From contig SCHM01000002.1 in assembly GCA_004123355.1 (NCBI GenBank), positions 4,747,569 through 4,811,568 of the forward strand: 64,000 nt of DNA, in the 5' to 3' direction. The notes below the pieces were generated by a model, which saw only the letters and a program-made list of their open reading frames with translations, made no database searches and was not told the origin of the DNA. Below are positions 4,097 to 30,025 of the stretch, piece after piece. Every line of letters begins with the position of its first letter. Position 1 is the first letter of the stretch. The translations under genes were made by a program, and so were the position numbers. The stretch comes from Amphirosellinia nigrospora. Taxonomy: Eukaryota > Ascomycota > Sordariomycetes > Xylariales > Xylariaceae.

Positions 4097-4387
4097 ATTA
4101 CGCTTTATATACTTAAAAAAATAAAGCTTTAATATATATAATATTTATATATAAAATTTATAAATAAAATAAAAAAGAAAAAAAGTTTAACTTTATAATA
4201 TAAGTAGCTATTTAAATATTTACGTAAATAGCTATATTTATTATTAAATATTTACTTTTATTTATTATACTATATTTATTATAAATAACAATTATATATT
4301 TATTATAAATATATAGTTATTATAAATAAAAATTATAAATATTATAGCTAGTATAAAGTAAGCTATTAAAGCTTATAAATTTATAAT
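4097..4387 (+). mobile_element. MITE family, copy A (RIP-saturated)
   Basis: This 291 bp segment is a heavily mutated version of the elements at 17189 and 29733. It can be aligned end to end with them: it begins ATTACGCTTTATATACTTAA where the 17 kb copy has GTTACGCTTCACACACTCGA, and ends TTTATAAT followed by TA where the others end in CCGTAAC followed by TA. Almost every C or G outside CpG is now T or A, so it is as RIP-mutated as its surroundings. A non-autonomous Tc1/mariner-like DNA element is the most likely class, from the TA target site and short TIRs of the fresher copies. The left TA is not clean here, so the first base is uncertain by one or two positions. Confidence 0.75.
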
Positions 4388-6454
4388 TATTTTTTTTTTA
4401 AAAAAAAAAATAATTTAACTAAAATTAAAGTTATAACTACTTTTTAACAAAAACAAAAATCGCTTTAAAGTTTTTATTAATATAATTTTTTATAAAGTTT
4501 TTATATTATTAAATTATTATATTAGTTTTTTAATACGTTATTAAAATTTTTTTATTTAATATAATATTTAATATATATAATATTTATATATTTTTTTTTT
4601 TATACGTTTTTTTTTATATTATTTTTTTTTTTATATTATAGCTTTATTATTGTTTAAATATAGCTTATTAAATTTAGTTTTTTATATTATTTTTAGCTAT
4701 ATTTATAATATTATTAAAGTTTAATTAAATTAAAATTTATATTATAAAAGTTTTTTAATATTTTTATATTATTTTTAAATTTTTGCTAATATTATATATT
4801 ATTAAGGTTTTAATTTTTTAATTTATTTAATATTATAACTTTAATAATAAAATTAAAATATTTATATTTTTTTAATAGTAAATTTTTTTTATTTTTAAGT
4901 TTTATTATTTTTTTTTTTAAGTTTTTTATTTTTAACTTAATAATAAATTATTAAATATTTTTATAATTAATTTATATAATAATAATTTAATATTTTTTTA
5001 AATATAAAACTTTTAATATAAAATATTTTTATTTTTTTATATATTTTAAACTTTATTATATTATAAAAAAATTTAATTTATTTAATAAATAGTTTATTTT
5101 TTAAAACTATTTTTTTTTTAAAATTAATATATAATTTTTATATTAAAATTAAGTTTTATTAATTTTTATTAGTTTAGTTAATTATACGTTTTTAAATATA
5201 TTATAGGTTTTTTTAATTAATTTAATAAACTATGTTATTTTTTTATTTTTTTTTATATATTTATTCGAATTATTTTTTTTTTTTAAAAAGTTTTTATAGT
5301 TTTTTATTTATAGTCCGATTTTTTTAATTAAAATTAAATAATATTAAAAAACTTATTTTAATTTTATAAAATAATAATTTTATTAAAATATAAAAAAATT
5401 AACGTTTAAATATAATTATAATAAATATATATTTTAAACTAATTATTTTAATAATAATTTATATATATTATAATTTTTAATTAATATATTTATTTATAAT
5501 TTTTATTTATTTTATAATTTTATAATATTTTATAATAATTAAATATATTTTTTTTTATTAGTTTATATAATTTATTTATAAAATAAAAATAAATTAAAGT
5601 TTTATAGTTTAAATTATAATTATAATATTTAAAAATTTAAAAAAATTTTTTATAATATATTTAATAATATTTTTTATAGTTATTTTTATATATAAAATAT
5701 AATTTATATTTATTTGCTTAAATAGTTTATTATAATTAATATTATTATATTTATATTTATTTTTAAATATTTATTTAAAATTAATAATAAATAATATTAT
5801 ATACGCTTAAATATTAAAAAAAAATAAATTTATTAAAAATTTTATTTTAAATTTTTAATAAACTTATATTTTATATAATTTATTATATATAATTATAATT
5901 TTATTTATTTAAGCTATTAATAACGTTTAATAATAAATTTATATTAATTAGTTTATTTTTCGTTTATTAGTAAATTTAATGTTAAAGTTTATTTAGTTAA
6001 ATATATTTTTTATAGCTAAATAATTTATTAGTACGATTATTAAATTATAGCTAGCTTATATTATAGTTTATAGTTGTTTATACGTTTATATTATATATAT
6101 AATTTTTATTTTAAAAGTTTATATTATATTTTTAGTTAAAATAAATATTTATTAAAAAATATAATTAATAATATTTAAATATTAAAAATTACTTATTTTA
6201 GTTTTTATATATAGCTATTTTTTACGTAAAATATTATAATCTTAAAATTATATTTTAATAAAACGTTTATTTATATAAATAATAACTTATTTAAGTTATA
6301 ATAATATAATAATATATTTATATATTAAGTTTTATATTGTTTAAAATAACGTTTTTTTGTTTAATAAGTTTATAATATATTAATTTATAGTACGTTTATT
6401 TTTTCTTAGGTTTTTAACCGGTGTTTTATTTAAAATTCGCTTTTTATTAAGTAA
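4388..6454. other. RIP-degraded DNA left of the outer LTR element
   Basis: AT-rich sequence without a recognisable gene or repeat end. Residual CpG and GpC are somewhat more frequent after about 5.9 kb. It is continuous, across the outer retroelement, with the sequence starting at 23512, judged by the shared AGTAA target duplication. Confidence 0.6.
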
Positions 6455-6623
6455 TATAAAAGGTTATAGCTTTAAGGCTAAAAAATACTATTTATTAACT
6501 ATAATAAAAAAAAAAAATCTATACGCGCTAATATATATAAAAAAGCTATTATATAATAGTTTTAACTTAAGGCTAAAACTATAACTTAAGTTATAAGTTT
6601 ATTAGCTTAGTTAACTTATAATA
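6455..6623 (-). repeat. LTR of outer retroelement (left copy)
   Basis: A 169 bp terminal repeat matching 23337-23506 along its length. It shares the central block with ATCTATACGCGCTA and the GC-retaining inverted motif around the AGCTTTA/TAAAGCT core. The AGTAA target duplication lies immediately outside. This copy is more RIP-mutated than its partner. Confidence 0.8.
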
Positions 6624-6789
6624 TTATTTTTTTTTTACTTGTTTATAAGCGTAAATATAACTAATAAAACGTAAAAATTAATTTTTTATTATTAAATTTT
6701 ATTTAATAATATATATGCTTTTATATTGTTTGTTTATTAATATTATTGCTTATATTATTTTTGTTTAGCTATATAAAAAAGAAAGGTTT

Positions 6790-6827
<38 letters not shown>

Positions 6828-7016
6828 TTATTTTTATAAGTTTTATTATTTTTAAACGCTTAGCTTATAATTAAAATACGAGCTGTTTTTTATTTATATT
6901 AAAGCGGTAAAAAGTTATTTATTTTTAATATATTTAAAATAAATATATATTTTAAACTAGTATAATTATTAATTAGCTATTTATTAGCTGTTTTTATTTT
7001 GTTTTTGTTTTATTTT
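6624..7016. other. Outer element internal sequence between LTR and nested insertion
   Basis: About 390 bp of RIP-mutated internal sequence of the outer retroelement, lying between its left LTR and the nested element. It starts with a T-rich tract (A-rich on the minus strand) that may be the polypurine tract. It ends in ATTTT (7012-7016), the left target duplication of the nested element. Confidence 0.6.
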
Positions 7017-7359
7017 TATAAAATATTAGCGTTTTTATAGCTTAATAAAAGATTAAACTAATATATATATAAATAAACGTACTAAAATAAGTTTAAAAAA
7101 TTTAATAAATTAAGTTTAATTATAAATTTAGTTTATAGTTTTATATTTATATATATATATATATAAAATATAATTAATTTGTTTAAAGTTAATAAAGCTT
7201 ATTAAGCTTGTTTATAAGCTTAAATATATTTAAGCTTATTAATACGTTTTATATGTTTTATTTTTATTTAAATAAACTAGTTAAGCTAATATATTTTAGT
7301 TTTATTTAAATAAGCTAATAAAGCTAGTATGCTTAAGTTAAAAAGGTTATTTTATTATA
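7017..7359 (-). repeat. 3' LTR of inner retrotransposon
   Basis: A 343 bp terminal repeat that aligns with 15024-15368 from end to end and carries the same HindIII-like AAGCTT-rich block in its middle. It is more strongly RIP-mutated than the 5' LTR. Confidence 0.8.
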
Positions 7360-9364
7360 TATTTTTTAAATAAGTATTTTTTTAGCTTTAAAGTTTAAAA
7401 TAAAAGTTTGTTACGTTTATTAAAAAGGCTCGGTAAAAATAATTTTTTTTTTTTCGTTTATATATAAAATATATAAAAAAAAATAATAATTATAATTATT
7501 TTAAAATTAGCTATTTTATTATATAATAATAAAATTTATATATTTTTAATTAAATTGGCGCGCGCGTTAAATAGTATAATTGCTATTAAAAAATAAAAAT
7601 ATATATATATTTTTTATATATATAAACAATTATAATACGCGTAATATTTAAAACAATATATATAGCTATAAATAATAATAAAGCGTATAAATACTATAAT
7701 AGTTTGTGGTTAATAGTTATATATTAATTCGTATATATAAAGCTTTTTATTTTTATTTTTTTTTTTTTTTTAAATTTTATATAATTTTTATATATTAATA
7801 ATTAAAATTATTTAACGCTTTTTATATTATTTTAAGATTTTAACTAATTTTAATTTTATTATAGTTAAAATTTATTTAATTATTATTTTATATTAATATT
7901 ATTTATTTTTGCGTAATTATATATATATATAAAATTATATAATAATAATTAATTTATATATAATAATATAATTTTTTTATTTTGCTAATATATTACGTTT
8001 TATATATTAATAGTTGCTTTAATAATTTAACTAATTTAACGTTTAGTTTATATATTATTATTTTTATTATTATTATTACCGCTAAACTATAAGCTTATTT
8101 AGTTTTTTAGCTTGTTTAGCTATAAAATTCATATATTAACTAATAATTATTAAACTTATTTTTTTTTTTTTTTTTTTTTTTTTATATATATATATATTAA
8201 TTCGGAAAAATATAACTATAATAGTTTTGTTTAATTATTTATTATAGCTTTAATTTTATTTTTACTATTTTATAAACGTTATTATTAAATTATAAATATA
8301 TTTTTAAACTTAGTTAATAAATTTTAGCTAATTATTATATTATAGCGATTTTTTTATTTTTTTTTTAGAAAATAATAAAAAATCAGCTTAAATTAACTTA
8401 ACCGATTTATTATTTTTTACGCCTATACTTATACTTTTTTATTTTTATTAAACCTATTAGCTATTAATATTTTTATTTTACGCTACGTTTATTTTATTAT
8501 AATATATTTATTAGCCTAGCTTTATTAGGTTATTTGTTTAAGCTATTTATTACGGTTTAAATAGCTTTACTAATAAAGTTAGCAATAATAATAAAAAAAA
8601 AAAAAAAAAAGAAAATAAAAAAAAAAAGAAAAAATAGCTTTTAAGTACTAATCGTTTTATGCCGCGCTTGCGCTAATTTTTTCGAGCTTTTATAAAAACG
8701 TTATTATATTAATGCTTTTTTTTTTTTTGCTAAGCTTACGTTTATAGCGCTTTTATTAGTCCGCTATTACTAATTAATTTTTAAGCTATATTTTGCTTAA
8801 ACTACGCTTATTTAGCTTTTTATAATAAATTATATAAAAATATATTATTTTTAATAGTTATATTTTTATTATAGCTATTACTATAAAAAAACTATAAATA
8901 TAAAAAATATAAATTAATTAAAGTTTATAATTTATATTTAAACAATATTAATTTATAATATATATAGTTTTTTATATATAGTTTTTTTGCTATTATTTTT
9001 ATTAACGCGTTTATTATTACTATTAAAAAAGAAAAAAAAAACAAAAAAAAATTATTAATTTTATAATAACGTTATATTATTAAACGTACTTTTATAAATA
9101 TATTTTTATTATTTAAATATATTAAACTATTTAGTATATTTTTTCTATTTATTTAAATACGTTAAATTTTAATATATTTTATTATTTTATATATTATATT
9201 TTATAAACAATTATATTAATATAATAATAAAAAAAAATTATATATTTTAAACTATGTTAAAGCTTATTTTAGCGCGGTTTTATAAATATATATTTTAATA
9301 ATATTTTTTAAAATAGTTCGCGTTTATTTTTGCTTTTATTTTTACTTTTATTACTACTATTATT

Positions 9365-9367
<3 letters not shown>

Positions 9368-9404
<37 letters not shown>
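9368..9404. repeat. (AAT)n microsatellite
   Basis: About a dozen consecutive AAT units inside the inner retrotransposon. Confidence 0.9.
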
Positions 9405-12400
9405 TATTAACGCGCGTCCGGCGTTATTTACGCAATAACTAATATTATTAAAAAGCAGAAAAAAAAAAAAAATAAAAACTATAATATTTTTCGTACTTTT
9501 TTTACCGCCGCTACTACTTTTTTTTTTTTTTTTTTTTATTTTTTATAACGCTAAAACGTTATATTATAATATAATTAATAAATAAAAGTTAATATTTTTT
9601 TACTAAGCTTAGCTTATTTACTATAAATATATTTTATTTAAAAGCTTTTATTTAAATTAATAAAAATTTTTTATAATTATTTAATATTAATTTTATTTTT
9701 TTTATAATATATAATTTATATTTTATAAATTAATAAACGCTTAAAAATATTTAAACTAAATATATAAAAAGTTTTTAGTAAGCTTATTTATTAATATTTA
9801 ATCTGTTAATAAATATATTATTTTAAACGTTTTTTTATTATATTTTTATTTTATTTATATTTTTATATTTATATATTTTAATATAGTATTAATTTTTTAT
9901 TTTTATTTATAATAAATTTAATCGTTTAAATATTATTTAAAAAAATTTTTTATTTTTTATTTAAAATAAAGTTTAAATTTTTAAATAGCTTTTAAAATAT
10001 TATAGTTTTTTTTTTTATTATTTTAAACGTATTAAATTTAATTTTAGTTATAAATATAAAAATAATAGTTTATTTTATTATTTTTATATAATTATATTAT
10101 TATATAATAATAAATATATTTATATAAATTTTTTATTTTAATATTATTAATAAATAAAACGTTTTTTATAATTATTAAAGCTTATATATAATTATCTTAT
10201 ATTTTATATATAATTTTTAAAAATCGAATATTATATAAATATTAAATTATTTAATTTATTATTTTTAAATATTTTTTGTTTAAGTTAATAAAATATTTTA
10301 ATAATTAAATAGCTATATATATTATATTTAATTATAATATAATAGCTATATATAAAATCGATTTAATTTGTTTTTAATACGTTTTAATTTATATTTTTAT
10401 TATTATATTTAAGTTTTTAATAAGCTTTTTTATTAATAATAAAATTATAAACGTTTAATTATTATTATTTAAATTATAATATTTTATTATTTTTTTAATA
10501 TATTATTTATAAATTAAAATAATAAATCTAGTTTTTTAGTTATAAATAATTTATATTTTAAAAAATTATATTATATTATTTTATTTTTTAAGTTTATATG
10601 TTTTTTAATATTTTTTATAATATTTTTAATTTATTTAGTATATTTTTTTTAAAAAAATATTAAAAATTATTTATATAAAATACTAAAAATACTATTTTAT
10701 TTTTATATAAAATATATAATTTTTTTAATAAAATATATATATTATTTATTATTAATATTTTTACGAATTTTTATATTAAAACAAAAAAAATCTTATAGTT
10801 TATATAATATTTTATTAAATAAACTTATTATATTATTTTAAAAAAACTTTTTAATAATTTAACTATTATTAAAAGTTTTTTTTTTTTTATAATATTTAAA
10901 AATACTTTAATAATATTAAACTATTTAATTTTTATATTAAATATATAACTATTATTATTATTAAATAAAACGTTTTAATAATAATATTATTATATAAATT
11001 AATTAAAAAAAATATTTTTTATAAATTTTTTAAACTATTAATTATATTTTATAAGTTTTTAAGAATTTTTTTTATTTTATTTATATATAAATATTTATTT
11101 TAAAAATAATAATATATTTATAGTTTTATTTTTAAAAAAGCTTTAATGTTTTTTTTTTTATAGCTATTTATATTTTTTATAAATATTTTATTTAAATTGT
11201 TTTTTAATTAATATTTTATAAGATTTTTCTAGCTTTTAAAAAATAGTTTAAAAAAATCGGTTTTATAAAAGCGTTTTTTTTTAAAATTTATAAAAATCCG
11301 TTTTATTTTTATTAATTTATTATAACTATAAAAACTATATATAATATTTTATATTTTTAGTTTTTTAATAAATAGTTTTTTATTAATTAAATATAAAAGT
11401 TTTTAAAAAGCTTAATTAGTTTAAATTTATAAAAAAAATTATTTTATTTTTTATATATATAATTATTATAAATATAATATTTTTATTACGTTTTTATAAA
11501 CTTTTAGCTTTTTTAAAGTTTTTATTTTAATTTTTTAGCTTAAATATAAAATTAAAAAATAAATTATATAAATATTTTTATTTAACTAGTTTAAAATTAT
11601 TTTAATTTAAATAATATATTTTTATATATTTTTATTTAATTTTATATTTTTATTATTATATACTTTTAAATAAAAAGTTTAAAAATTATTATTATTTTTT
11701 TATTATTATTAAAGCTTATTTTATATTAGTTTATTATTTTTTAAATTTAGGCGTTTTTAAAAAATTATAAATTTATATAGTTAATTTTTATATATTATAT
11801 TTTATTTTTTTTAATATATTAAACGTTTTTACTTTTAATTTTTGCTTTTTTTATTAAATAATAAAAAGCTTATTAAATAAATTAAAAGTTTTTTTTTATT
11901 ATTTAAAGCATTAATATTTAATTTATATTTTATTTTTTATTTATTTTTATATATAATAATATTATTTAAATTTTTTAAAAAAAGTTTAATAATTTTAATT
12001 TTATTAGTTTATTAATAGTTAATTTTAATTATAAGTTTTTTATATTTTTTATAATAAAATAATTTTTATTAAATTTTATATTTTATATAATAATTATTTA
12101 TTTTAATTAAAAGATTTATATTTAATATAAATTTTAGTTTATAATTTATTAAATATTTAATATAAATTTATATTTTAGTTTTATAAGCTTATCGATTTTT
12201 ATTAATAAGCTTAAGTTTTTTTATAAATATATTTAATATTATATATATAAGTTTTATTTTAGTTTAATTTTAAATTGTTTATTAATATTTATATTTTTTT
12301 TAGCTAATATTATTTAAAATATTATATAAATTATATAAAATATTTTATAAAATATATAAAATTATAAACTTTTAATAAATTTATATTATATAGCTATATT

Positions 12401-15023
12401 ATTATTTAAACGATTTTTAATTATAAAAAAATTAAAAAGTTTATATTTAAAAATATTTTAAAAGCTTTTTAATAATTTTTTTTTTAGCTTTTTTTTTTGT
12501 TTAAAAGCTTATTATTATAAACAAAAATAATTTAAATTAATTTTTTTATTTTAGTTTAAAATTAATAATAAGTTTTTTATTTATTATAATTATTATTTTT
12601 ATTATTATTATATATTATTATAATTAATAGCTAATATTTTTTATAATTTATTTTTTAAACTTTTAAATTTTTTTAAATATTTTTAATAAGTTTTTTTTTA
12701 TATAAAAATATTTAAATTATTTTATTATATTTATTTTTTAAGCTAAATAATTAATTTAATTTATTATATATTTTAAAATAATTAAAAATTTTTTAATAAA
12801 TTTTATAAAAAAAGCGCGATATATATTTTTTAAAAACTTTTTTAAATATAATTTAATATTATTATAAATATATAATATTTATATTTTTATAAAATTTTAT
12901 TTATTTTTACGTTTTTTATTTTAATTATAAAGCTTTTAAAAATTTTAAGCTTAAATATTTTATTTTAAATATTATAACTATTTAAAATTTTATTTTAGTT
13001 TTAGCAAATTTTTTAATAATTATTATAAATATTTATTAAATATTTTTATAAATAGTTTATATAAAAAATTATATATATTTATAAAAATATTTTATAAAAT
13101 AAAAAAAATTAATTATAAACGTTTTAATTAAAAAAATTTAATAAAATATATTAAATAAAAACTAGGTTATATTTTTAAACTAGCTAAATAATTAAATTGT
13201 TTTTTTTATAGTTTTATATTTAAATATATAATTAAATTTTAAATATTATATTTTAATTTTTATAAATACGCTTTAAAAAATAATATTTATATAAAACTTT
13301 TTATAAACATTATATTATTTAAAATTAAATTTATTTTTTTATTTTTATTTTAGTTAAAAAAATCCGTTTAATAATTTTTGTTTTTTTTTTAAAAATAAAA
13401 ATTAAACGTTTTTATATTTATTATTTCGCTATTTTTATTTTAATAAATAACTTAAGTTTAAATAAGTTTTTATTATTAATTATATAAATTGTTTTATAAT
13501 TATCGATAAATATATTATTTAATAAAATATTAATATTTATAAATATATTAAAAAATATTTAAAGTTTAATTAAATATAATAAAATTAATAATAATATATT
13601 ACGTTATTTAACTATTTATTTTATTTTAATTAAGTTATTTTTATTTTATTAAAATATTTTAATTATTTTTAATAATTTGTTTATATATATTATTAAACTA
13701 AATATATATTTATTATTTTTTAATATTTTTAACTTTTAATAAAAAAGTTTTAAATAATTAATAATTAATTTATTAATTATAATATATTATAAAATTTATA
13801 ATTATTTAATAATTATAAATATATTTTATTTATTAGTTTTTTATAAATAAATAATATTTTTTAATATTTTATATATATTTAGTTTAATAAAAAGCGATTA
13901 TTATTTAGTTAATATTATTTAATATTTTATTTTTAAAAATAATAGTATAAACGTTAGCTTTTTTTTACTTTTAAATATATTATTATAAATAATAATAATA
14001 AGAATTTATTTTAGTTTTTAAATAATATAATTAAAGTTTTAAAATATTTTAGCTTTAATAGTTAATATATTAATTAATTTGTTATAAAAATATTAGTTTA
14101 ATATTAATTATAATTAAAAAATTTTTAATAAAAATACGTTAAATATATTAAAGATTTTATTATTTTTATTCGTTAATATATAATTTTTTAATTTTAATTA
14201 TTTTATAATATTAATATTATTATTTATAGCTTTTTTTAATATTATTTTATAGTTTATTAAAAATTAATATATATAATTAATTTAATAAAACAAAAATTAT
14301 TTATAACGTATTAATTAAGTTTTAAAGCATTAAATATTTTTTATATTAATTTTATTAATATTATTTTAAATAATAAAAAATAATAGTTTTATTAATTTAA
14401 TTAAATATAACGTTATATTTAATTATTATAGTAATAAATATTAAAATATATTTAAAATATTTTATTTATTAATTAATAAATTATTTTTTAATTTTTATTT
14501 TTATAAGCTTAATTAATTTATAAATAAATAGTTTTTTTAATTAGTTTATATTATTTATTAGCTTATTTTATTTAATTAAACTTTATAAATAAATTTAACG
14601 AATGTTTTATTTTAAATTTTTAATAATTTTTTTTTAAAAAAGTTTTAATAATTATTTTAAAATAAAGTTTATTTTAAAACATTAAAGTTTATTATATTTA
14701 AATATTTTATATTTTATATATATTAAAGCTTAATATATTATATTAGCTAGTTTTATTATTTTTTAAAAACTATATTTTTTAAAATAGTTAATAAGCTTTT
14801 TAATATAATAATAAATAAGCTATTAATAAAATTAATATATATATATATATAAAATTAAAAAAAGCTTATAAAATAAGCTTAAAATATTTAGTTTAATATT
14901 ATATATTTATTATATAATTAATTAAAGTTAAAAAAATTTAAAAAAAATAAAATCGTACTATTAGTTTTAAAAAAATATTATATTTTAAAAATATTAGTTT
15001 TATAAATAAACTAAATTTATAAC

Positions 15024-15368: not shown

Positions 15369-15373
15369 ATTTT

Positions 15374-17188
15374 TATTTTTATTTTAAAAAAAAACTAATC
15401 GCTATAAGTTTAAATATCTTTTTTTCGGCTTATATATTATTTATTATTTATTTAAAAAACTTAAGATTTTTTATTATAAAATAATTATTTAGTTATTTTT
15501 AATTATTTAATATTTATTTATAATTATATATAATATTTTTTATTTAGCTAAAAATTTTTAAGCTTTTTATATTAACGCCGAAAATATATAACGGTTTGTT
15601 TAATATTTTTAACTATTTTTAAGCTTTATGTTTTAAAGCTGTTTATTTTTATTAATATTTATTAAATATTAATAAACGTTATAATGTTTATACTAGCTTA
15701 AATAAAAAATTAAAATATATATATTTTTATAAATATTTATATTTATTTTTATTTTTAACTATTAATAAGTTATTTTATAGCTATTTATATTATTAATATA
15801 GTTAAAGTTTTTAATAAATTATATAAAGCTATATATATTTTTAATAGCTAAAATAAAATAAATATTTATATATTATATTAGCTTAATAGCTATTAATTTT
15901 TATTTAATATTTATATAGTTTAAAAAGCTATTAATATATTTATTATATAAATTATAAGTTTTTATAGCTTTAAAGCTATTATTTTTTATTAATAAGCTAT
16001 TTAAACGCTAAAAAAAAATTTTAGCTTTTATTTATTATTTTTATAAGTTTAATAGTTTATATTATAAATAAATAGTTTATTATATAGTAAAAAATAAGTA
16101 AATATTTATAAACTATTAATAATTTTTTATAATATTAAGTATATATTACGTAATATTTACGATTTTATAAAAAAGCGCTAGGTATTTTTAAAGTAGTTGT
16201 TTTTATGCTGTTTTTATGTTTATTTTTTAATTAAAGTTTTTATTTAACGAAAAAATAACTTAAAAACTATTTTTAAGCTACGTAGTTATAACGTTAATTA
16301 TAACGCTTTATTAATAATATAATAAATAAATAAAAATATTAATATAAAACTTAGTTAATAGTTTTATTTTTATTTTTATAAATTTATTAATAGTTTTTAT
16401 TTATTTTTTAATAAAATAGTTTAAGCTTTTTATAGTTTAAACTTTAGTTAATACGGTTATTTTTTTTTATAAACTATTTATTTTTTTTTATTTTTAAATA
16501 AAATTAACTAATTTATTATTAATTAAAATAAAAAAAAAATAAATAAAAATAAAAAAAAAACAAATAATATATTTTATATAATTTATTATATAAATTTAGC
16601 TAATAAATTATTATTCGGTTATTTTTTAATTATTTAAATATTTTTTAAAAATATATTTTAAAAATATTTTTATTTTATTATTTAATAGCATAAGTTTTTT
16701 TTTTTTTACTATTAATTTAGTATGTTATTTATAGCTTTATAATAATATTTAAATAATTTTAATGTTTTTATTTTTTTAAAATTATAGATCGGCTTTTATA
16801 TAATTATTAATAACTTTTTTATTTTATTAAAATTTATTAATAAATAAAGCTTTTTTGTTTTTTTACGTTTATTTTTGCTTAAATATATTTTTTATTTAAT
16901 ATTTATTTTATTTAAATATTATTATTAAAAATTAAACGTTTAAATTTAATTATAAAAATAAAAAATTAATAATAATTTATTATAATAAATTAATATAAAA
17001 AAAAATATATTTTTTAAAAATATCGAACTTTATTATATATAAACTAATAATTTTAATAATTTTATATTTAAAATATAATAAGCTAATTTTTAAAAAAGCT
17101 AGTTTATAATAATATTTTTTAAATTTAGCTATATTTAATTATTTATTTTATATATTCGGTTAAAAATCGTTTAATATTAGCTATTTTA
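15374..17188. other. Outer element internal sequence right of the nested insertion
   Basis: RIP-mutated internal sequence of the outer retroelement resumes here after the ATTTT target duplication. No coding frame survives. It runs to the TA dinucleotide used as target by the MITE at 17189. Confidence 0.6.
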
Positions 17189-17481
17189 GTTACGCTTCAC
17201 ACACTCGAAGAGACAAGGCTCCAGTATATGTGGTATATTGCATATAAAATCTACAGATAAAGTAGGAAGGAAGGAAGGTCTAAATCTACAGTACAGGCAG
17301 CTGCTTAAATACTCGCGTAGGGCAGCTGCATTCACTGCTAGTGCCTGCCTTTATTCACTGCACTGCATTCACTACGAATGGCAGTCACGCATTCACTGTG
17401 AGTGGCAGTTACTGCAAGTGGAGATTACGGGTGCTGTGGCTAGTGGTGGGGCACAGCCACCAGAGCCTGCAAATCCGTAAC
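17189..17481 (+). mobile_element. MITE family, copy B (nearly RIP-free)
   Basis: A 293 bp island of normal composition within the AT-rich outer element. The ends are GTTACG...CGTAAC (6 bp TIR) flanked by TA on both sides (17187-17188, 17482-17483), as expected for Tc1/mariner-type insertion. It has no coding capacity; the short frames that cross it are chance. The middle contains degenerate tandem units of about 15 bp built on ATTCACTGC and AAGTGGCAGT, and unit number differs from copy C. Low RIP load shows that it inserted after the surrounding element had been mutated, or escaped because it is shorter than the roughly 400 bp that RIP is known to need in Neurospora. Confidence 0.85.
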
Positions 17482-17483
17482 TA

Positions 17484-18082
17484 TTTTGTTTATTTTTTAT
17501 TATATTATTATTATTATTGTTTAAACGAACTATTAAATATTTTATAACTTTTAAATAAAAATTTTATTAAAGCTTTTAGTTCGTAAATAAATATAAATAA
17601 ATATTTATTTATTTTATAAGTTTAATATAATATTTATATTATAAAAAAAAAGCTTAATTTATAATTAATAAGTTTTTATTATTAATTATAAATATTATTT
17701 TAAAAGTAAATTTTTTAATTAAACTATATATAATTATAAAAACATAAAAATAAACTAGTATTTTTTAGTTTATTTATTTTATTATTTTATTAATTTTTAA
17801 ATAATAAATTATATTTAGTTTTATTAATATTAACTAATTTATATATTATTATAAAAGTTTTTATTTAGTTTAATTTTAATTATTATAATATTTTAAAAAA
17901 TTTATAAAAACGTTAAAAATAATTAATAAACTATTTAATATATATTTTTATATTTATTAAGTTTATTTTTTATTATAATTATTTTATTTAGTTTATTTTA
18001 ATAATATTATAAAAAATAAATTATTTTTATTTTTATTAATAAAATTATTATAAATTTATTAATAGCTTATTTTAAAACTATT
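17484..18082. other. RIP-degraded internal sequence of outer element
   Basis: AT-rich DNA between the MITE and the 1.5 kb repeat. Nothing else is recognisable. Confidence 0.5.
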
Positions 18083-19565: not shown

Positions 19566-22500
19566 AACTTAAAAAGTTTTTATTTTTTATATTTTTAAAT
19601 ATTTTTTTACTATATATATTATAATTATTATAAAATAATATATTATTTAATATATTTTAGCTAAAAAATTTTTAATAAAATAGCTAAAATATTATTATAT
19701 TTAAATAATTAATTAATATAAAATTATAATAGTTTTAAATTAAATTAATTTAAAAGTTTTTATTTTAATATTTATATTTAGTTTTAATATTTAAATAAAT
19801 TATTAGCTCCGATTTTATATTTAAATATTAATATATTAAAAAGTTTTTTTTAATTTTAAAATTTATAAAGAACTTTTTTTTATTATTTTTATAGTTTTAT
19901 AACTAATTAATAGTTTAAATATTATTTTATTATATTTATTTTTATTATAAGTTTTTATTTATAAAAACGTTTTATTTTATAAAGATTTTTTATTTATTAG
20001 TTTTATACTATTATATAAATATTAGTTTTTATTTTTTTTTATTTATTTTTTTTTTAAAATTAAAATTTTCGGCTAAAAATTATTTATTAGTTTTAAAAAA
20101 TAAATTTTATTTTTATTTAAAAAAATATTTAATTATTTATTATTTATTTTAGTTTTATAAAATAATATAAATTTAAAATTATAAAAAATTTAGTTTATTA
20201 AATTATTATTTAAAAAGTTTTTAGTTATTATAAAATATTTTAATTTTTATAGTTTAATAAAATTAAAAATATTTTTTTTAAATTTAAAGTTTAATATTTT
20301 ATTTTTAAATAATTTATTATTATTAATAGTTTTTATTATATATTTTATAATTAATTTTATAAATAAAAATTTCGAAAAAAATAAATTATTAAAAAATTTT
20401 ATTTATTATATTAAAATAAATATTTTTATAAATTATTTTAAATAATTAGTTTTTATAATTATAATTTATTTAAATTAAATTAAATAAAAACTAGTTTTAA
20501 TATAAAAAACTTTTAAACTTTTCGAAAGCTATTTTTTTTTTTTTTTTAATAAAAAAAACTTTTTTTTTTATAAATAAAATAAATAATATAAATATTTAAA
20601 TATTTAAAAAAACTATTAATAAAATTTATAAATTTTAAAAACTTTTTATATTTTTAACGATTTAAAACTTTTTATTTTTAAATAATTTTTATTTTTTAAT
20701 TATATATATTTTAACGTTTATTTTAATAATAAACTTAAAATATTTAGTTTTATTATTTTAAATTTATATTTATTAATATTAAAATATAATTTTATAGCTT
20801 TTAAAACGTTTAATATTTATTTTATTTTTTTTATATAGTTTTTTTTTAATTTATTAAACTATATTAAATATTATTTATATATATAATATAAATATATTTA
20901 AATATTAATATAAAACTAAGTTTATATAGTATTAAAATATAACTAAAGTTTTTAATAGCCCGAAAAAAATAATTAATTATTTAAAAAATCCGAATTAAAT
21001 ATAAATTGTTTTTTTTATTTATTTTTTTTTAATATAAAGTTTATAAAAATAACTTTTATATTTAGTTTAATAAACTAATCTATTTTTAATAAATTTATTA
21101 ACGTTTTTTTAATTAAAAAAAAAATTTATTTATTTATTATATATTAAATATTTAATAATTATATAAAAATATAATTTTTTTTTAATTTTTTTATAAATAA
21201 TATTAAATTTTATTAATAAACTATTAATATAAATATAGTTTTTATTAAATAGTTTTATAAATATTTTTTATAATATTAATAGTTTATTTTTCGATATATT
21301 ATATAATAGTTTTTATAAAACTAAAAGTTTTTATTTTTTATTATTTTATATAATAAAGATTTTATAATTTATTTTTTATAATATAAAAATAGTTGTTTTT
21401 TTTTTTTTATTAAATAATTTTATTTAAAGTTTAAGCTTTTTTAATAATTATATTTTTATTTTATTATATTTTTTAGCGTAAGCGTTTTTATAATATTTAT
21501 TAATATAATTATAAATATTAATATATTTATTATTTTAAAACGTTTTAATTTTTTAATTTTTATTTTAAAAACTATATTATTAAATTATTTAATTTTTATA
21601 TTTATTATAGCTATTAAATTTTTAATATATAATTTAACTTTTATACTTTAAATAATTAGCTTTTTTATATTAATTATATATTTATAAACTATATATATTA
21701 TTTTTAATTTTTTTATTTATAGCTTTTTTAAAATTAAATTATATTATAAATAGTTTATTATATATATTAATATTTATTATTAAAAACTATTTATATTAAT
21801 TTTTATATAAATTATTTTATTAATAATTTTTTATTTTATTATTATTTTTATAATTTTTTTAATATAATATTAATATATAATAAATAAACGCTAAATAATA
21901 AACTATTTATAATTATATATTTATAACTTTAATTTATTAATATTTTAATAATTAATATTTTATTATAAATAAAGTTTATATAAAAAATATATTATTTATA
22001 TATTATTTTAGTTTAGCTTTTAAGTTTATAAAAATTAAATTTTTTATATATTTTATTTATAATTAAAAAAAAAACTATTTATTTTCCGATTTTTTAAAGT
22101 TTATTAATAAATTTTTAGTATTTATTATTATATTTATACTTTTATTTTATTATTATATTATATTAGTAAAAAAATTTATTAATAAAATAGTTATTTTTTT
22201 ATATTTAAAATATTATTTATTAATTTTTTATTTATTTAGCTTAATATTTAATATTTAATAAGCTTAAATTTATAATAAACTAAAATAACGCTAATATTTT
22301 AATTTTATTATAATTATATTATTTTTAATATTTATAATAAAAATAAAAATTAATAAATAAATAATAATTATTATTTTTTTATTATTTTTTATATTAGTTT
22401 AATATAATAGCTTTAGCTTTTAAAACAGCTAATTATAGCTATAATTTTATTAATTTATTTATTATAGTTTTTAAAAAAATTATTTTAAAAAATTAAAATA

Positions 22501-23336
22501 AAAATAAACTATTCGTTTAATATTTTTTTAGTATAATTAATTTAGTTTTATTAATTTATAGCGTACTATTTATATTTATAAATATATATTTTATTTTAAA
22601 AAAATTTAAAAAATAGTTTTTTTTTATATAAATAAAAATAAATTTAAAATAACTTTTCGTAAATAGTTAATATTAAAATAATAATTATAAAAAAACTATA
22701 TAAATTTTATAAAGTTATAAGTTTAAAAACGTTTTTAATAATAAAAAATAATATAATTATAACTTTAATAATATTTTAAATTATTTATTATTTAATAAAA
22801 CTTATTATAGTTATTTTTTATAAATTTAATATTTTAATCGAGTTTTTATTTTATAGCTATTTTTACGCAAAAAATTTATATAAATATTTATAAATTTATT
22901 TAGCTAAAAAAAAATTTACGTTTTAATTCGTTAAAAAAATTAGCCGTTTTTATAAAATTTTTTTATTTATAATTGCTTTATTATAAAAAATAATAATATT
23001 AGTATTAAATATTAAAGCATAAAAATAAAACAATATTATAATATATTTATTTATTTTTATAGCTATTATATATAACTTAACGTTTATTTATTAGTTATTA
23101 AAAATAGTTTAAATTTATTTAAAAAATATTAATATTATTTAATTAATAATAATTATTTATTTTTATAGCTTTTATTAAAAGCTATTTAATAAAGTTTAAA
23201 TTATATTATTTAAGCTTTAAATTATTATAAAAAGTTTTATAAAAAACTTTTTATATATTTATATATTTATTAATTTTATTATTACGTAGCTAATAAACTA
23301 TATTTATTATTTAAAATAAAATAATTATAATTAATA
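19566..23336. other. RIP-degraded internal sequence of outer element
   Basis: AT-rich DNA up to the right LTR. Occasional CpG-containing words survive, but no frame or domain can be read. Confidence 0.5.
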
Positions 23337-23506
23337 TATAAAAATTATAGCTTTAAAGCTAAAAAATATTATTTATTAACTATAATAAAAAAAAAAAAAA
23401 TCTATACGCGCTAGCGTATACAAAAAAGCTACTATATAGTAGCTTTAGCTTAAAGCTAAAGCTATAACCTAGGTTATAAGCTTATTAGCCTAGCTAACCT
23501 ATAATA
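23337..23506 (-). repeat. LTR of outer retroelement (right copy)
   Basis: A 170 bp repeat of 6455-6623. It keeps more CpA/TpG sites, for example in the block CTAGCGTATAC and in AACCTAGGTT, so it is the less mutated of the pair. AGTAA follows at 23507-23511. Confidence 0.8.
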
Positions 23507-23511
23507 AGTAA

Positions 23512-26500
23512 TACTATTTTTATTTTTATAAAAGTTTTACATATTAAACATAATATAATAAAAGCAGTTATAAAAACTTGCTATTTTTAAAGTATTATTT
23601 TAAAGCTTTAAATTAATTAAAAAAAGCTAGGTTTTAAAAAACTATTAGTTATTTTTTAGTAATAAATAATTTTAAGCTATTAATTTTATACTTTAAAAGT
23701 TTTATAAAAAATATTTAAAAATAACTTTTTAAATAAAAAAATATACGTTTTTTATTAAAAAATCTAAAAATAGTTTATAATTGTTTAATATAGTTTTTTT
23801 AATATTAAAAATATAATTATATTATTAATAAAAGTTTATAAAATTTTTTATATAGTTTTAAAAAATATTTATAAATTTTATTTATATATAAATAAGTTTT
23901 AAAAACTTATTAATATTATTATAAATTTTTTAAGTTTTTATAAATTTATTATTATAAATCGGTTTTATAATTAAAATATATTAAAAATTAATAAAAAAAT
24001 AAAATAACGTTAATATTATATATATAGCTTATTTTATAATAATAATATAACTTTTATTTATAATAATAATAAATAGTTATTAAATATTATTATATAATTT
24101 ATTGTTTATAAATTAACTATAAGTTTATTTTTTTTAACGTTTTTAACGACTTTTTAAATAACGAATATAAAATATATAAATAAAGTTAGTTTTTTAATTT
24201 ATTTTATACGTTTTTACGCGTATAGTTTATTATTTATTTCGTTAAATATTTTATAGTATATATATATTAAAAAATAAAAACAATTATTAAATTTATATTT
24301 TTATTAATTATTTATAAGTAGTATTTTATTTGTTTTTTTTTAAAATATTAACTATTTTTTAATTACGTTAAATTTTTAAATATTTTTAATAATTTTTATA
24401 ATTTTTTTATTTATAGCGCTTTTTTTATATATATAAACTATTTATTTAAAGCTATTATTTTTAGTATTTTAAAAAGCTTTTTAATTTTTAATAAAATAAA
24501 CTTTATATATTTTAAATTTATTATATTTTTATTTTAGTTTTTATTTTTTAATTATATTATATATTTAATTAGTTAATAATATATTATTTATTATTAATTT
24601 ATATAATATATTAGTTTATCGAATAAATTATAATTTATTAATATTTATATTTATATTATATATTATTATATTATAAATATTTTTTATCGTTATAATTTTA
24701 ATTATTAAAATTATATCGAACTTTTAATTTATATAATAAATATTTAAAATATTAATATTATTAAAATTATATTTAATTATTTTTAATTTATTAGTATTAT
24801 TTAGCGCAAAAACTAGTTTATTTATTATTATTATAATTATAATTGCTATAATATATTTTTTTTAAATAGTTTTTAAAAATTAATATTTTTTTATTTATTA
24901 ATATAATTTATATATATATTTTTATAGATTATTTTTTTGCATAATAATAAATTATTTAATATAATTTAAAATATTATATTAAATTATACTATTAATATTA
25001 TTTTATTTTTATATATAAAATTAAATACGAAATTTTTATTAAAAAATAATAGTTTATATATAGCTAATATAATATACGTTTTATTTAAAGCTAGCTTAAT
25101 ATTTTTTTTAAAGTTATTTTTTTTATAAAAATATAATTTTAATATTATTTAAAAAAATATTTTAAAATTTAAATATTTTTAAAAATAGCTTTTTCGTTTA
25201 AAAAATCTATTATTATTTTATTAAAATATAAAAAACTATTATTTAATAATATTTATAATTCGATATTTTAGTTTAATATTTATATTAAACATTTATATTT
25301 TAATAATATTAAGTTTTTTAAACGTTATTTTTAAAAAAATAAAATATAAAATAGTTTATTTTTTATATTTATTTGTTTTTTGTTTATTTTGCGTACTTTT
25401 TATATTTATAATATTATAGTATATTTAAATATATTTAATAATTTTTTATAATAATATTTCGGTTTATTTTTATATTAAAATATATAATAATATTTAAGCT
25501 TTTTTTATTTTTTATATTATTATTTTAAAATAAATATATAAATATATTAAGTTATTTTTTTTTTGCGCTATATTTTTAAAATTTAATATTTATAAATAAT
25601 AAATAAAATTTTATTTTTATTGCTTTTATTTTTAATATATTATTTTTATTTTTAAAGTTGTTTATATTTTTAAAGCGTTATTATTTTTAACGTTTAATAG
25701 TTTATATTTTTTATTAATATTATTATTAAATATTTTATAAGCTATAAATATTATTTTTTTATTATTAAAGCGCTATAATTTTTTAAATATTTAAATAATT
25801 TATTTTTAAATATAAATAATATATAATATTTATTATATGTTTATTATAAAAAATTTATTATTTTTAAGTTTAAAAATTTTAAAAAATATTTATAATAATA
25901 GCGTATATATTTTTATTTTAGCTTTTCGAAATTAAAAGTTTTATCGTAATATTTATAAATAATATTTATATTTATAATTATAAATATAAAATTTTTATTA
26001 TTATTATTATTTAATAATAATTTATTAAAAGTTAAATTAAGATTAAAATTATCCGGGTTAACGAAATATATATTTTTTTTTTAGCTTTTTATATTTTTTT
26101 TATTTTATATTTTTTTTTTTGCTTTATTATAACTTTTTATTTTTTATTTTTTTTTTTATATTTTTTTTTATTATTTTTATTATAATTTTTTTTTATTTGT
26201 TTTAAATTATTATTATTATTATTAAACTAATAATAAAGTTTACGTTTTTTTAATAAACGTTTAATATATTTATTTTATTTTATTTTATATTTTTTTTTAT
26301 TAATATATAAATATATATTTTTATAGCTATTAATAATATTAATTTTTATTTTATTATATATATTATATATTTATTTAATTTTATATTTATATTAAAATTA
26401 TTTAAAAACTTTTTAATATTAAGTTTTATAATAATTTAAATTTATATTATAATTTTATATTAATTAATATTATTTTACGTTAATATTTTTATAGCTTTAA

Positions 26501-27529
26501 TATATTTTAATTTTTTTAAATAAATATTATTAAAGCCGATTTATTATACGTTAAATTTTTAATATAAAATTAAAAATATTAAACTTTTCGGTTATTATTA
26601 TTAATTATATTAAAAATCGTTTTATAAAACGTTTAATAATACTATTTAAACTTTTATATTAAAATTTTTAATATTTAATATTTATTAGTTTGTTATTTTA
26701 TTATAAAATAGCTAGTTTTTTAAAATATTTAAAATATAGTTAAAATTTATTATATATTATTTTTAGTAGTTTTTTTATTTTTAAAAAAAAAGTTAATTTT
26801 TTAATAAAATAATAAATATTAATAAATATTAATTATATTTTTTTTACTATTATTTTTATATTTTATAAGTTTTTTTATAAAAGTTAAATTATTTTATATT
26901 ATTTTATTTAATATAATAATTATTATAAAATTTTAAGCTTATTAAATAATAAAAAATAAAATTTCGTTTTAATAAATTATTAAAATTTTATAAGTTATAT
27001 ATTAATAGTTTTAAAGTTTATTAAAGCGGATTTTTTTTATTATTGTTATTATTATTAAAGTTTTTTTTTAAATTTAAAGCTTTTTTAACTATTTATAAAT
27101 ATATCGCGGATTTTAATTTATATTTAATTAAACTAATTATAAAATTAAATATAATAAAAAATTATTTATATTTAGTTTTTATAATTTAAGTTTTAATTTA
27201 ATAATAAATATTATTAAAAATTTAATTATTATTTATAATATATTTAATATAAATATATTTATTTATTACTAGCTATAAATATTAATATAAAAAAATATTA
27301 ATATTAATAAAAGTTAGCTTTATATAATTATAGTTTTAAATATAAATATATTAAAAGTTTAACTATTTATTAATAAGCTAAATTTTAATATTTAATTTAT
27401 ATATTAATTAAAGCTTAACGCGTTAAATTAATTTTATTAATTAAGTTAATTATTTTTTAATAATATATAACTAGTTTATTATAATATTATATTTGTTTAT
27501 ATTTTTAATTAAAGTATATTTTTTTTAAT
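23512..27529. other. RIP-degraded DNA right of outer element
   Basis: AT-rich sequence. The first 250 bases retain slightly more CpA than the surroundings. I found no terminal repeats, coding frames or RNA genes. Confidence 0.5.
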
Positions 27530-29091
27530 ATATTTAAGTTTTAAAAAAAATATAACTAAATAAAAAAAGGTTTTTTATCGATAAAAAATTTTTTTGTTTT
27601 TTATATTTTAAATAAAAAATTTTTTTACTTAAATTAAAAACCTTTTTGTTTTTATTTATTATTATATATATTTAGTTTTTAGTATTTATTTTTTATTATA
27701 TAAATAACTATTAATTTAATAAAATAATTTAAAATTAAATATTTATATTAAAAGTAATAATATAATATAAATAAATTATAAAGTTTTATTTTTAATTTTT
27801 TTTTTATTATAAATTATATTAAATTTAATTTTTATTAAATTTAATTATTTAATAGTTATACGTTTTATTAAACTTAATTATTTAATAGTTATATATTATA
27901 TTAAATATAATTATTTAATATTATTTGTTTAATTATATTTATAGTTATTTTATTTTTTATTTTTTTAATTTAATATTAATTTAAATATTTATTATTTTTA
28001 AATTATAAACTAATATTATTATTGTAAATTTTATTTAAATATAATTTTTATTAAGCTATTTTTTAAAAAAATTATAATTATTATAAAATTAGCTATTATA
28101 TTAACGTAATAAATATAGCGGTATTTTTTATAAAGTGTTTATTTATAACTTTTTTTGTTTATTTTTTTGCTTTTTATTATAATATTTTAAGCGTAGTTTT
28201 TAAGTTTTTAAAAATTTTAAAGCTTTAAATCGATTATAATAAACGCGTTTTTTAAGTTTTCGAGTTTTTTTTTTAAACGTTTTAGCTAGCTTATAAGGTT
28301 TTTTTTAAATTTATTAATAAGCTTAAGCTTTTTCGAAAGGTTTTTTTTTTTAAACGTTTTAGCTAATTTATAAGGTTTTTTTTAAATTTATTAGTAAGCT
28401 TAAACTTTTTTTAAAAAAAATAAAAATTTAATACGTTAAAAATTAATATATTTTATAATACTATTATTATTTAAAATATAAAGTTTATAGTTATATTTAA
28501 AATTAAAAATAGCTTATAATTATATTTAAAATTAAAAATAGTTTATAATTATATTTAAAATTAAAAATAATTTATAGTTATATTTAAAATTTAAAATAAT
28601 AATTTATATTTACTAAAGAATTTTTTTAATTTTATTTAAATTAAAAATCGTTTTAAAGATTTTAATATTATAATAAGTTTTTTTTATTTAAAATAAAAAT
28701 TAATTATTTGCTATAATATTTAACTTTTTAATTTTATTTTATAGCTTAAAATTATAGTTTAATTATAAAACAATAGTATAACTTTAGCGTATATTGCTAT
28801 TATTAATAAAACAAATATATAAAAAATATTATATTAATATTTATATTTATAAATAAATTTATTATTACTATTAATTAAACGGCCGAATATTTTTATAACG
28901 TAATTATATAATTATATAAAAAAAAAAATATTATAATTAATAAATTAAAATAAAATAATAAGTTTTTATATATAATTTATTAAAAAAAAACGAACTAATA
29001 TAACTAGTAATTATAACTTATTTATTAACTTAAATATATAGTTCTTAAAAACTTAAGCATTTTTGCCCTTAAATTAAAGGGCTTTTAATAT
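27530..29091 (-). repeat. 1.5 kb dispersed repeat, copy 2 (inverted)
   Basis: Inverted relative of 18083-19565. It is less mutated at its right end, where GCCCTT and AAGGGC (29065-29070 and 29077-29082) form a 6 bp stem around a 6 base loop, one of the few GC-rich words in this area. The palindromic ATCGAT block is at about 27,570-27,590. The two copies end at the same points, so the element has defined borders. Confidence 0.6.
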
Positions 29092-29732
29092 TATATTTTT
29101 TAAAAATTATATAAAAAAAAAAAAATTTAAAATATAATAAATTAATAATAAAAATAATTTAGCTAATATATTTATTAAACGTACGTAAAACTAAATATTA
29201 AAAGCTTTAGTTTTTATAAATAAATTATTTATATAAATCGAAATATTTATTAAAAAACTATAAAAAATATATTTATATAAAATAATAGCTAAATATATAT
29301 AAAAACGAATATATATATATAAATATTAAAAAAACTAAATTATATATAAATAATAAAAAAGTTAAAAAATTATAATAAAAATAATAACTAAAATTATATT
29401 TTAAAAAATAATATATATAATTAATTTCTTTTTTTTTTTTTTAAACTTAAACTATATATAATAAAAGTAATAAATTTATATTAATTATTATATATAAACG
29501 TTATAACATTATTTTAAAACCTAGCATTATATAATATTAATTAAATAAAATATTTTAATAATTAATATAATTATTATATAAACTATTTAAATATAAATAA
29601 TAATTTAGTTATAATTTTAAATAAGAATTATATAAAATATTTTTTTAATAAATAAACTTTATTTATATATTAACGAAAATAATAATTAAAAATATTTAAA
29701 AAATAATATTATATAAAAAAGTAAAAACAATA
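29092..29732. other. RIP-degraded DNA between repeat and MITE
   Basis: AT-rich sequence with no recognisable feature. Confidence 0.5.
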
Positions 29733-30025
29733 ATTACGCTTTACACACTCGAAAAGACAAAGCTCTAGCATATATAGTATATTGCATATAAAATCTACAA
29801 ATAGAGTAAGAAGGAAGGAAGGTCTAAATCTATAGTATAAGCAGCTGCTTAAATACTCGCGTGGGGCAGCTGCATTCACTGCCAGTGCCTGCCTTCATTC
29901 CCTGCAACTGCATTCACTGCAAATGCATTCACTGCAAATGGCAGTCACGCATTCACTGCAAGTGGAGATTACAGGTGCTGTGGCTAGTGGTGGGGCACAG
30001 CCACCAGAGCTTGCAGATCCGTAAC
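29733..30025 (+). mobile_element. MITE family, copy C (lightly RIP-mutated)
   Basis: A 293 bp copy of the element at 17189, with TA at 29731-29732 and 30026-30027. The left TIR reads ATTACG instead of GTTACG, a G to A change. Relative to copy B most differences are C to T or G to A and cluster in the first 120 bases. The right half, including CAGCTGCTTAAATACTCGCG, is nearly unchanged. One internal ATTCACTGCAAATG-type unit is gained and one unit present in copy B is absent, so the equal lengths are a coincidence of unit exchange. Confidence 0.85.

Follow-up and report, generated by a model that had tools for sequence, protein, structure and literature searches.

Three copies of one repeat in the window

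The window, a stretch of 64,000 nucleotides from Amphirosellinia nigrospora (contig SCHM01000002.1, assembly GCA_004123355.1), contains three copies of one repeat, A, B and C (Table 1). Their positions and end-to-end alignment, first described in the initial annotation, were confirmed; a fourth copy was not found in the window, the best other scores being 26 (positions 1-36,000) and 27 (36,001-64,000). Copy B is the reference LTR to which the loads refer. Plain BLAST of copy A against AT-rich DNA was uninformative because chance AT matches swamp the signal, and RIP-aware log-odds scoring with shuffled controls was used in its place. The scores were 259 for B to A and 216 for C to A, while shuffled B against A reached a mean of 15.7 and a maximum of 33.5, and B against shuffled A a mean of 15.6 and a maximum of 26.9 (500 shuffles each). 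The kinship of A and B, which the initial annotation had made dependent on a comparison with shuffled AT-rich sequence, is therefore upheld.

Table 1. Repeat copies and associated features in the window
Feature	Position	Strand	Description
Copy A	4096..4388	-	Coding-3' LTR of RIP-saturated chromovirus relic; element coding strand -; load 0.80 of 138 C/G sites
Relic interior adjoining copy A	4391..5944	-	Coding 3' end, C-to-T/G-to-A saturated, truncated
Target-site duplication of B, left	17183..17187	.	ATTTT
Copy B	17188..17482	-	Solo LTR, AGTTACG...CGTAACT, 295 bp; 5-bp duplication, free of internal sequence for 2 kb to both sides
Target-site duplication of B, right	17483..17487	.	ATTTT
Target-site duplication of C, left	29727..29731	.	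ACAAT; one G-to-A from right copy
Copy C	29732..30026	-	Solo LTR, load 0.13 relative to B
Target-site duplication of C, right	30027..30031	.	ACGAT

Copy A represents the coding-3' LTR of an element that is truncated and saturated with RIP mutations, and not a stand-alone element of 291 bp, as had been supposed, since the interior of a retrotransposon continues from it. In an alignment of this interior to that of L018 (score 1148), 727 of 805 C/G sites are converted and 735 of 745 A/T sites unchanged; the internal match ends where the relic does. A partner LTR was found neither in L046 (upstream 7.1 kb; best score 19) nor in the remaining window (best score 27), and no 5-bp target duplication surrounds copy A (ATTAA / ATTTT). 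The loss of C and G was originally ascribed to non-CpG positions; CpG sites are struck too, 12 of 14 in copy A. Among 111 counted sites 20 are unconverted, 15 of them in GpC context.

Copies B and C are solo LTRs. Each is a single LTR bordered by a target duplication and devoid of an internal region, and the scores for internal ends within 2 kb on either side (17-22) are at background level. The description of both as having kept almost all of their C and G does not hold entirely for C, which is lightly loaded.

Identity of the repeated element

The three repeats are 295-bp LTRs of a Ty3/gypsy chromovirus of about 6.5 kb, of which the genome contains dozens of copies. A RIP-tolerant pattern located 181 LTR ends across the genome, its reversed control none. 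Same-strand LTR pairs at a distance of 5.5-7.5 kb number 33, 29 of these lying at 6.2-6.61 kb, and six opposite-strand pairs were obtained over the full 5.5-7.5 kb. In the one element examined (C4:4988194-4995041), a single LTR pair encloses reverse transcriptase (RT), RNase H, integrase and chromodomain. Along the coding strand the order is PF00078, PF17917/PF17919, PF17921 and PF00665, with integrase downstream of RT and RNase H as is typical of gypsy elements, and the chromodomain PF00385 follows behind rve (E 4.8e-07, residues 716-764). The target duplication of 5 bp is within the 4-6 bp expected of a Ty3/gypsy chromovirus. LTR ends of the type TG...CA are usual, although not obligatory; the termini found here, AG...CT, are an exception to the usual form and no defining failure. 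As to a polypurine tract and a primer binding site, the junctions, which were read by eye, show GAGGGGGG before the coding-3' LTR, and no TGG-type start was seen after the coding-5' LTR.

According to the initial annotation the repeats would constitute a MITE family, that is, a non-autonomous DNA transposon with TA duplication, whose movements both preceded and followed the main RIP episode; the load would then date the copies. The 7-bp inverted ends, the length of 291-295 bp and the many dispersed copies would agree with such an origin, which has nevertheless to be rejected and to which we assign practically no probability. It is refuted by the same-strand pairs at about 6.4 kb, one of which surrounds the gypsy domains. 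The 5-bp duplications also count against it; of the 32 unbroken copies that are not attached, 22 have an exact one (permuted mean 1.15, maximum 7; six fragments left out). In 14 sequenced LTR pairs, the outer 5-bp duplications are identical in nine, RIP-compatible in two and not matching in three. The supposed TA-type target sites do not hold either; the repeat itself extends from AGTTACG to CGTAACT with the 5-bp duplications outside, and TA is present on both sides in only seven of 25 solos. Attachment of 46 of the 84 sequenced copies to retrotransposon interior counts against a stand-alone, non-coding MITE, and the age derived from transversions does not account for the load.

RIP load of the copies and its gradient along the element

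The sequenced sample comprises 84 of 177 listed LTR places; for the two patterns, with 181 and 158 places, 100 each entered the listing. Copies L009-L045 were picked as best matches to B, which biases them to low load; C1 and C4 below 6.46 Mb, where all 60 listed places were sequenced, served as control. Among the 84 copies, the C-to-T load of solos (n=25) has a median of 0.03 and a maximum of 0.27, that of attached copies (n=46) a median of 0.48 and a range of 0.04-0.80 (p = 1.3e-10). The control subset contains 10 solos with loads of 0-0.15, 43 attached copies with 0.04-0.80, four fragments and three places of unresolved class. A relation between load and flank composition, as had been anticipated, was not seen in the 84 copies; high load is not predicted by an AT-rich flank, 20 of the 25 solos lying in flanks (190 bp) of less than 20% G+C and yet carrying loads of just 0-0.27. 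The load tracks attachment to the long element rather than the composition of the flanks; among the 25 solos, none that bears a 5-bp duplication is loaded above 0.27. Three truncated LTR pieces (L058, L062, L064), which lack internal sequence over the adjoining 95 bp, carry loads of 0.40-0.61; detached copies are thus not always clean. Two copies of unresolved class (L044, L045) have loads of 0.27 and 0.29.

The CpA preference of RIP is evident; in copies with a load above 0.4, conversion amounts to 0.76 at CpA, 0.59 at CpG, 0.49 at CpT and 0.35 at CpC, and the light loads of non-attached copies follow the same ranking (0.11, 0.08, 0.07 and 0.01). The 14 LTR pairs together contain 607 transitions and 16 transversions; the LTRs of the one unmutated pair are identical, those of the 13 mutated pairs 78-90% identical. 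It is this mutation signature, rather than direct observation of the process, that points to RIP, which operates on duplicated DNA during the sexual cycle. Matches to the cytosine methyltransferase domain PF00145, candidates for the RID or DIM-2 type, are found at C7:915031-915912, C1:3425633-3426511 and C4:9750315-9751312.

Private transversions occur at three of 6,692 sites in solos and at four of 11,653 sites in attached copies. No age difference is detectable, and equal age is only weakly indicated by these small counts. All transversions relative to B amount to 0.0024 per site in solos and 0.0014 per site in attached copies with a load above 0.4 (p = 0.09). Identical AT-rich target duplications often flank heavily loaded elements, too (e.g., ATTAT/ATTAT at loads of 0.75/0.68), which suggests that the target was AT-rich already at landing. 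With similar transversion rates and AT-rich duplications around RIPped elements, the proposed molecular clock, with movement both preceding and following a main RIP episode, is not sustained. Support is found for the alternative considered in the initial annotation, by which copy A was accessible to RIP only through its location in duplicated DNA; copy A forms one end of a long element that is itself repeated.

In both LTRs the load falls from the inner to the outer side. RIP weakens as the element's outer edge is approached, and its steepest drop is close to the promoter in the coding-5' LTR, where the load is 0.54 before and 0.10 after a TATA-like site (LTR bp ~109 in query orientation; nine copies pooled). 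In each of the 13 mutated pairs, positions 101-295 of the coding-5' LTR carry a lower load than those of its coding-3' partner. The interior comparison was made without L035, beyond whose junction there is no matching interior. RIP-tolerant patterns along the interior were found at 61, 53, 71 and 57 places genome-wide (reversed controls, 0); these numbers are without a 3' excess, and a surplus of 3'-end fragments is thereby dismissed as source of the difference between 3' and 5' loads. Limitation of RIP to the transcribed unit is not supported, because the outer coding-3' LTR is not sharply spared. An outward leak of RIP was not seen in C1:8296077-8302531, the sole element whose flanks are clearly rich in G+C (0.42-0.67 in each 100 bp, the first included). 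Three other LTRs checked have a G+C content of 0.22-0.33 in the first 100 bp. In two of these, L030 and L035, the G+C content is lower in the first 100-200 bp of the outer flank and has reached about 0.5 before 300 bp, which may reflect a short outward leak. A literature search on RIP edge gradients with limited terms yielded nothing useful.

Origin of clean solo LTRs and comparison with known systems

Solos could be clean merely through youth, their parents having inserted after RIP had stopped, in which case length would be irrelevant. Most solos indeed have a low load, recent insertions do occur, as evident from a full-length pair with identical LTRs and loads of 0.04/0.04, and the duplications of solos in AT-rich flanks contain 11% G+C (17 exact cases), which indicates that these copies landed after the isochore had formed. 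However, AT-rich duplications surround RIPped elements as well, solos have neither fewer private transversions than attached copies nor fewer transversions relative to B, and the RIP context ranking in lightly loaded non-attached copies indicates that some of them, or their parents, were touched by RIP. Youth is regarded as an unlikely cause. Slightly less likely still is gene conversion, by which solos and outer LTR halves would have been cleaned from unmutated LTRs elsewhere. Donors would be available, 15 full-length LTRs including B being at least 94% identical to B, and this option is named for crapaud in the Podospora study (PMC10787394); the clean outer side is, however, that of the coding-5' LTR in each mutated pair, a directionality unexpected from conversion.

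The preferred explanation is based on the length of the repeated unit. The long element would be recognized by RIP once duplicated and be mutated most strongly inside. Recombination between the LTRs before RIP, or after light RIP only, would leave a solo LTR of about 295 bp, which would be too short for efficient RIP. After RIP, with LTRs differing by 10-22%, recombination would be blocked and the element frozen at full length; such freezing would account for the lack of heavily mutated, duplication-bearing solos among the sequenced copies. This account as a whole, comprising chromovirus LTRs, RIP of attached and sparing of solo copies, and freezing by LTR divergence, is considered highly probable. 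The decay of the three LTRs is, hence, no clock; the intact copies B and C seem to have been spared through shortness, and the load of such short repeats records the history of the parent element instead of time and should not serve for dating. More tentatively, and rather doubtfully, RIP might halt inside the coding-5' LTR near the TATA-like promoter, leaving U3 almost untouched and the coding-3' LTR more evenly mutated, and might itself block the LTR recombination that removes elements; if so, promoter-bound proteins or the direction of transcription would shape where RIP acts. The occurrence of one 295-bp sequence in a single genome, both by itself and as the border of a ~6.5-kb repeat, represents a natural experiment, in which the fall-off of RIP at repeat ends can be measured and the cleanness of solos approached.

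The RIP length rule of roughly 400 bp, on which the initial annotation relied, is looser than stated. In the Neurospora homology assay, perfect homology over 155-220 bp may be enough for RIP (PMC4858203); those repeats were engineered and closely placed, and an LTR of 295 bp does not lie strictly under the limit. Mutations in compound Neurospora repeats lie around the centre, as they do here, and their number follows homology lengths of 220-520 bp (PMC4858203). In Mycosphaerella graminicola, much as for the solos here, MITEs shorter than the RIP length threshold are described as without clear RIP bias, which was ascribed to length (PMC4522978). There, MITEs and unclassified repeats are concerned, whereas here one sequence occurs both mutated in a long repeat and spared alone, which controls for sequence. 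In a plant-pathogenic fungus, RIP is likewise uneven along the element, with LTRs unlike the interior, but de novo mutations are most frequent in the distal parts of LTR elements (PMC10294615), which have the lowest accumulated load here. Both patterns would be compatible if interiors were already saturated. The lichen fungus Cladonia rangiformis shares RIPped retrotransposons in TE regions of very low G+C content with sharp borders to gene space, and short TEs possibly spared by size; its spared families are DNA transposons of ~730 bp, unlike the LTRs here (PMC12542154).

The closest parallel is found in the Podospora LTR retrotransposons crapaud and grenouille, for which RIP is described in the LTRs of full copies and hardly in solo or fragment LTRs, small size being invoked (PMC10787394). 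The contrast between solo and full copies is, thus, already published for crapaud. A minor low-GC peak exists there among solo and fragment copies, while here no duplication-bearing solo exceeds 0.27 (25 solos among the 84 sequenced copies), although the three truncated fragments do. Beyond the Podospora findings, the present analysis adds target duplications of 5 bp, ages from transversions and a gradient at the element edge, and we propose, as a further reason, that divergence of the LTRs blocks their recombination.

Identity of the repeats

Copies A, B and C, three related repeats in the window (see the table), align over their full length, end to end. With a RIP-aware score, in which C-to-T and G-to-A are cheap and all other changes dear, copy A reaches 259 against B and 216 against C, while in 500 shuffles each the maximum was 33.5 for shuffled B against A and 26.9 for B against shuffled A. 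Judged by these scores, copy A is a true relative of B and C, and the kinship proposed in the initial annotation stands well above shuffled AT-rich sequence. No fourth copy is found in the window, the best score outside the three being 27.

The window (G000:C4:4747569-4811568) belongs to a 48.1-Mb genome of 11 contigs, which was searched with B, C and A as queries (40 candidates scored per query) and with two RIP-tolerant LTR patterns, giving 181 and 158 matches genome-wide and none in reversed controls. The searches and the 100 listed matches of each pattern were merged into 177 places. Among these, 33 same-strand LTR pairs lie 5.5-7.5 kb apart, including 29 at 6.2-6.61 kb, versus six opposite-strand pairs. 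The little-mutated pair C4:4988194 / 4994746, the sole element examined for domains, encloses open frames, searched separately, with RT, RNase H, integrase and chromodomain; its coding strand is opposite to the orientation used for the repeats. The repeats are LTRs of a Ty3/gypsy chromovirus. The LTR has 295 bp (AGTTACG...CGTAACT), non-canonical AG...CT instead of TG...CA termini, and 5-bp target duplications. Of 32 unbroken, non-attached copies, 22 have an exact duplication (six fragments excluded; permuted mean 1.15, maximum 7). In 14 sequenced pairs, the outer duplications are identical in nine, RIP-compatible in two, and neither in three. Past the coding-5' LTR of two copies (L018, L020), the sequence begins ATCTACAGAT, which, read by eye, is complementary to ATCTGTAGAT within the LTR; this might reflect self-priming of the element. 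The full-length C4 copy and the unmutated C9 stretches listed in the table point to recent movement of the family.

Features in and around the window
Feature	Position	Strand	Description
Copy A	window 4096-4388	-	
Copy B	window 17188-17482	-	solo LTR; duplication ATTTT/ATTTT
Copy C	window 29732-30026	-	solo LTR; duplication ACAAT/ACGAT
Cytochrome P450 frame	window 38319-39791		gene-rich part, near AT isochore border at ~36 kb
Adenylating-enzyme C-terminus + carrier domain frame	window 44661-45539		gene-rich part
Aspartyl protease frame	window 53533-54897		gene-rich part
Inverted repeat	window 56743-56812 / 59028-59097		70-nt arms, 84% complementary, 2.2 kb apart; gene-rich part
L046	C4:4740600-4747700		second saturated interior piece of the element, without LTR, ~3-6 kb before window start
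Full-length copy	G000:C4:4988194-4995041		LTRs identical and little mutated
C9 copy	G000:C9:206197-206616		unmutated in the two 35-base stretches covered, one in the LTR and one in the 3' end beside it

The interior adjoining copy A shows conversion at 727 of 805 C/G sites and no change at 735 of 745 A/T sites. Since no partner LTR is found upstream in L046 (best score 19) or elsewhere in the window, copy A is interpreted as the coding-3' LTR of a truncated relic. The L046 interior piece itself has RIP-aware scores of 267, 281 and 178 (background ~20). Both ends of the internal region, sought within 2 kb of B and C, gave background scores of 17-22.

Spectrum and distribution of the load

Load denotes the fraction of C/G sites converted relative to B. 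In copies with load >0.4, conversion is 0.76 at CpA, 0.59 at CpG, 0.49 at CpT and 0.35 at CpC, and C following G is spared (GCT and GCC, 0.15 each); lightly loaded non-attached copies show an equal ranking (0.11, 0.08, 0.07 and 0.01). The initial annotation had confined the loss in copy A to non-CpG C and G, which is wrong: conversion has reached 12 of its 14 CpG sites, and of 111 counted sites the 20 left unconverted include 15 in GpC context. In the isochore (window 1-36000), leftover C is mainly in ACT, GCT and ACG; GpC is 9-fold and CpG 6-fold above base-composition expectation, so the C-to-T process of this fungus has a strong 5'-neighbour effect, with C after G spared.

Sequence was obtained for 84 of the 177 places: 46 LTRs attached to an interior (45 assigned by flank score and L074 manually), 25 solo, seven unresolved and six fragments. 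Median load is 0.03 in solos (maximum 0.27) and 0.48 in attached copies (range 0.04-0.80; p = 1.3e-10), in a sample that leans to low load because L009-L045 were picked as best matches to B. A control subset, C1 plus C4 below 6.46 Mb with all 60 listed places sequenced, holds 10 solos at 0-0.15, 43 attached copies at 0.04-0.80, four fragments and three unresolved copies.

Load had also been expected to track flank composition and to act as a clock. Neither is borne out: 20 of 25 solos lie in 190-bp flanks <20% G+C, yet carry loads of 0-0.27, and private transversions number 3 in 6,692 sites of solos and 4 in 11,653 of attached copies. When every transversion against B is counted, the rate per site is 0.0024 for solos and 0.0014 for attached copies whose load exceeds 0.4 (p = 0.09); they are few, but without sign of solos being younger. 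Where a solo with an exact target duplication lies in an AT-rich flank (17 cases), the duplicated bases are 11% G+C overall, and loaded pairs likewise have identical AT-rich duplications, so that both seem to have landed mostly in already AT-rich DNA. Against a simple rule that detached LTRs are clean speak three truncated LTR pieces with no interior within 95 bp (L058, L062, L064; loads 0.40-0.61) and two unresolved copies at 0.27 and 0.29.

Edge gradient and proposed mechanism

In eight cases from seven elements (L033 and L036 being two ends of one), all selected via low-load LTRs, an LTR could be compared with 3 kb of the interior next to it: interior load is 0.71-0.86 versus 0.09-0.25 in the adjoining LTR, which is lower at 16 of 16 trinucleotides. 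After context correction, attached LTRs with load 0.1-0.75 are more loaded in the inner than the outer half in 21 of 26 coding-3' and 16 of 17 coding-5' cases. In 13 mutated pairs, load is higher at the inner than the outer position in 13/13 for bp 101-295 and in 10/13 for bp 1-100. Both flanks of the element at C1:8296077-8302531 are already G+C-rich in their first 100 bp (0.49 and 0.67), and hence no outward leak is seen there; with 0.22-0.33 G+C in the first 100 bp beyond three other LTRs, a short leak may occur at some other elements.

Of 13 untied pairs, 12 have a higher load in the coding-3' than in the coding-5' LTR (p = 0.0019). Differing numbers of fragments along the element do not account for this asymmetry (61, 53, 71 and 57 matches). 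Among the coding-5' LTRs, nine whose load is 0.1-0.36 show a step at bp ~109, where load falls from 0.54 to 0.10; six of these were fetched as good B matches, favouring a clean U3, and eight lie within the fully sequenced subset. Single-copy change points are at 108-112 in six and at 85, 90 and 184 in the rest. By sequence reading, the step lies close to a TATA-like stretch, its exact position being blurred by protected GpC sites just past it.

RIP would be strong within a long repeat and weaken across its last few hundred bases, so that a solo LTR would be all edge. LTR-LTR identity within an element is 78-90% in the 13 mutated pairs and 100% in the unmutated pair. RIP would soon rule out LTR-LTR recombination and freeze elements at full length, and solos would thus derive from elements recombined before RIP or after light RIP only.

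Comparison with published systems

A limited literature search found no published statement of RIP-blocked recombination or of a RIP stop at an LTR promoter. The missing RIP bias of MITE families has been put down to length (PMC4522978). Reportedly, 155-220 bp can trigger RIP between close repeats, and mutations centre within compound repeats (PMC4858203). De novo RIP mutations are described as commonest in distal parts of LTR elements (PMC10294615), which is the opposite of the accumulated load found here. For Podospora crapaud, RIP is described from the LTRs of full copies and scarcely from solo or fragment LTRs; the authors suggest small size, and leave open whether unmutated solos arose by recombination before RIP or by gene conversion (PMC10787394). 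The contrast between solo and full copies is already known from Podospora; the edge gradient is the observation added here.
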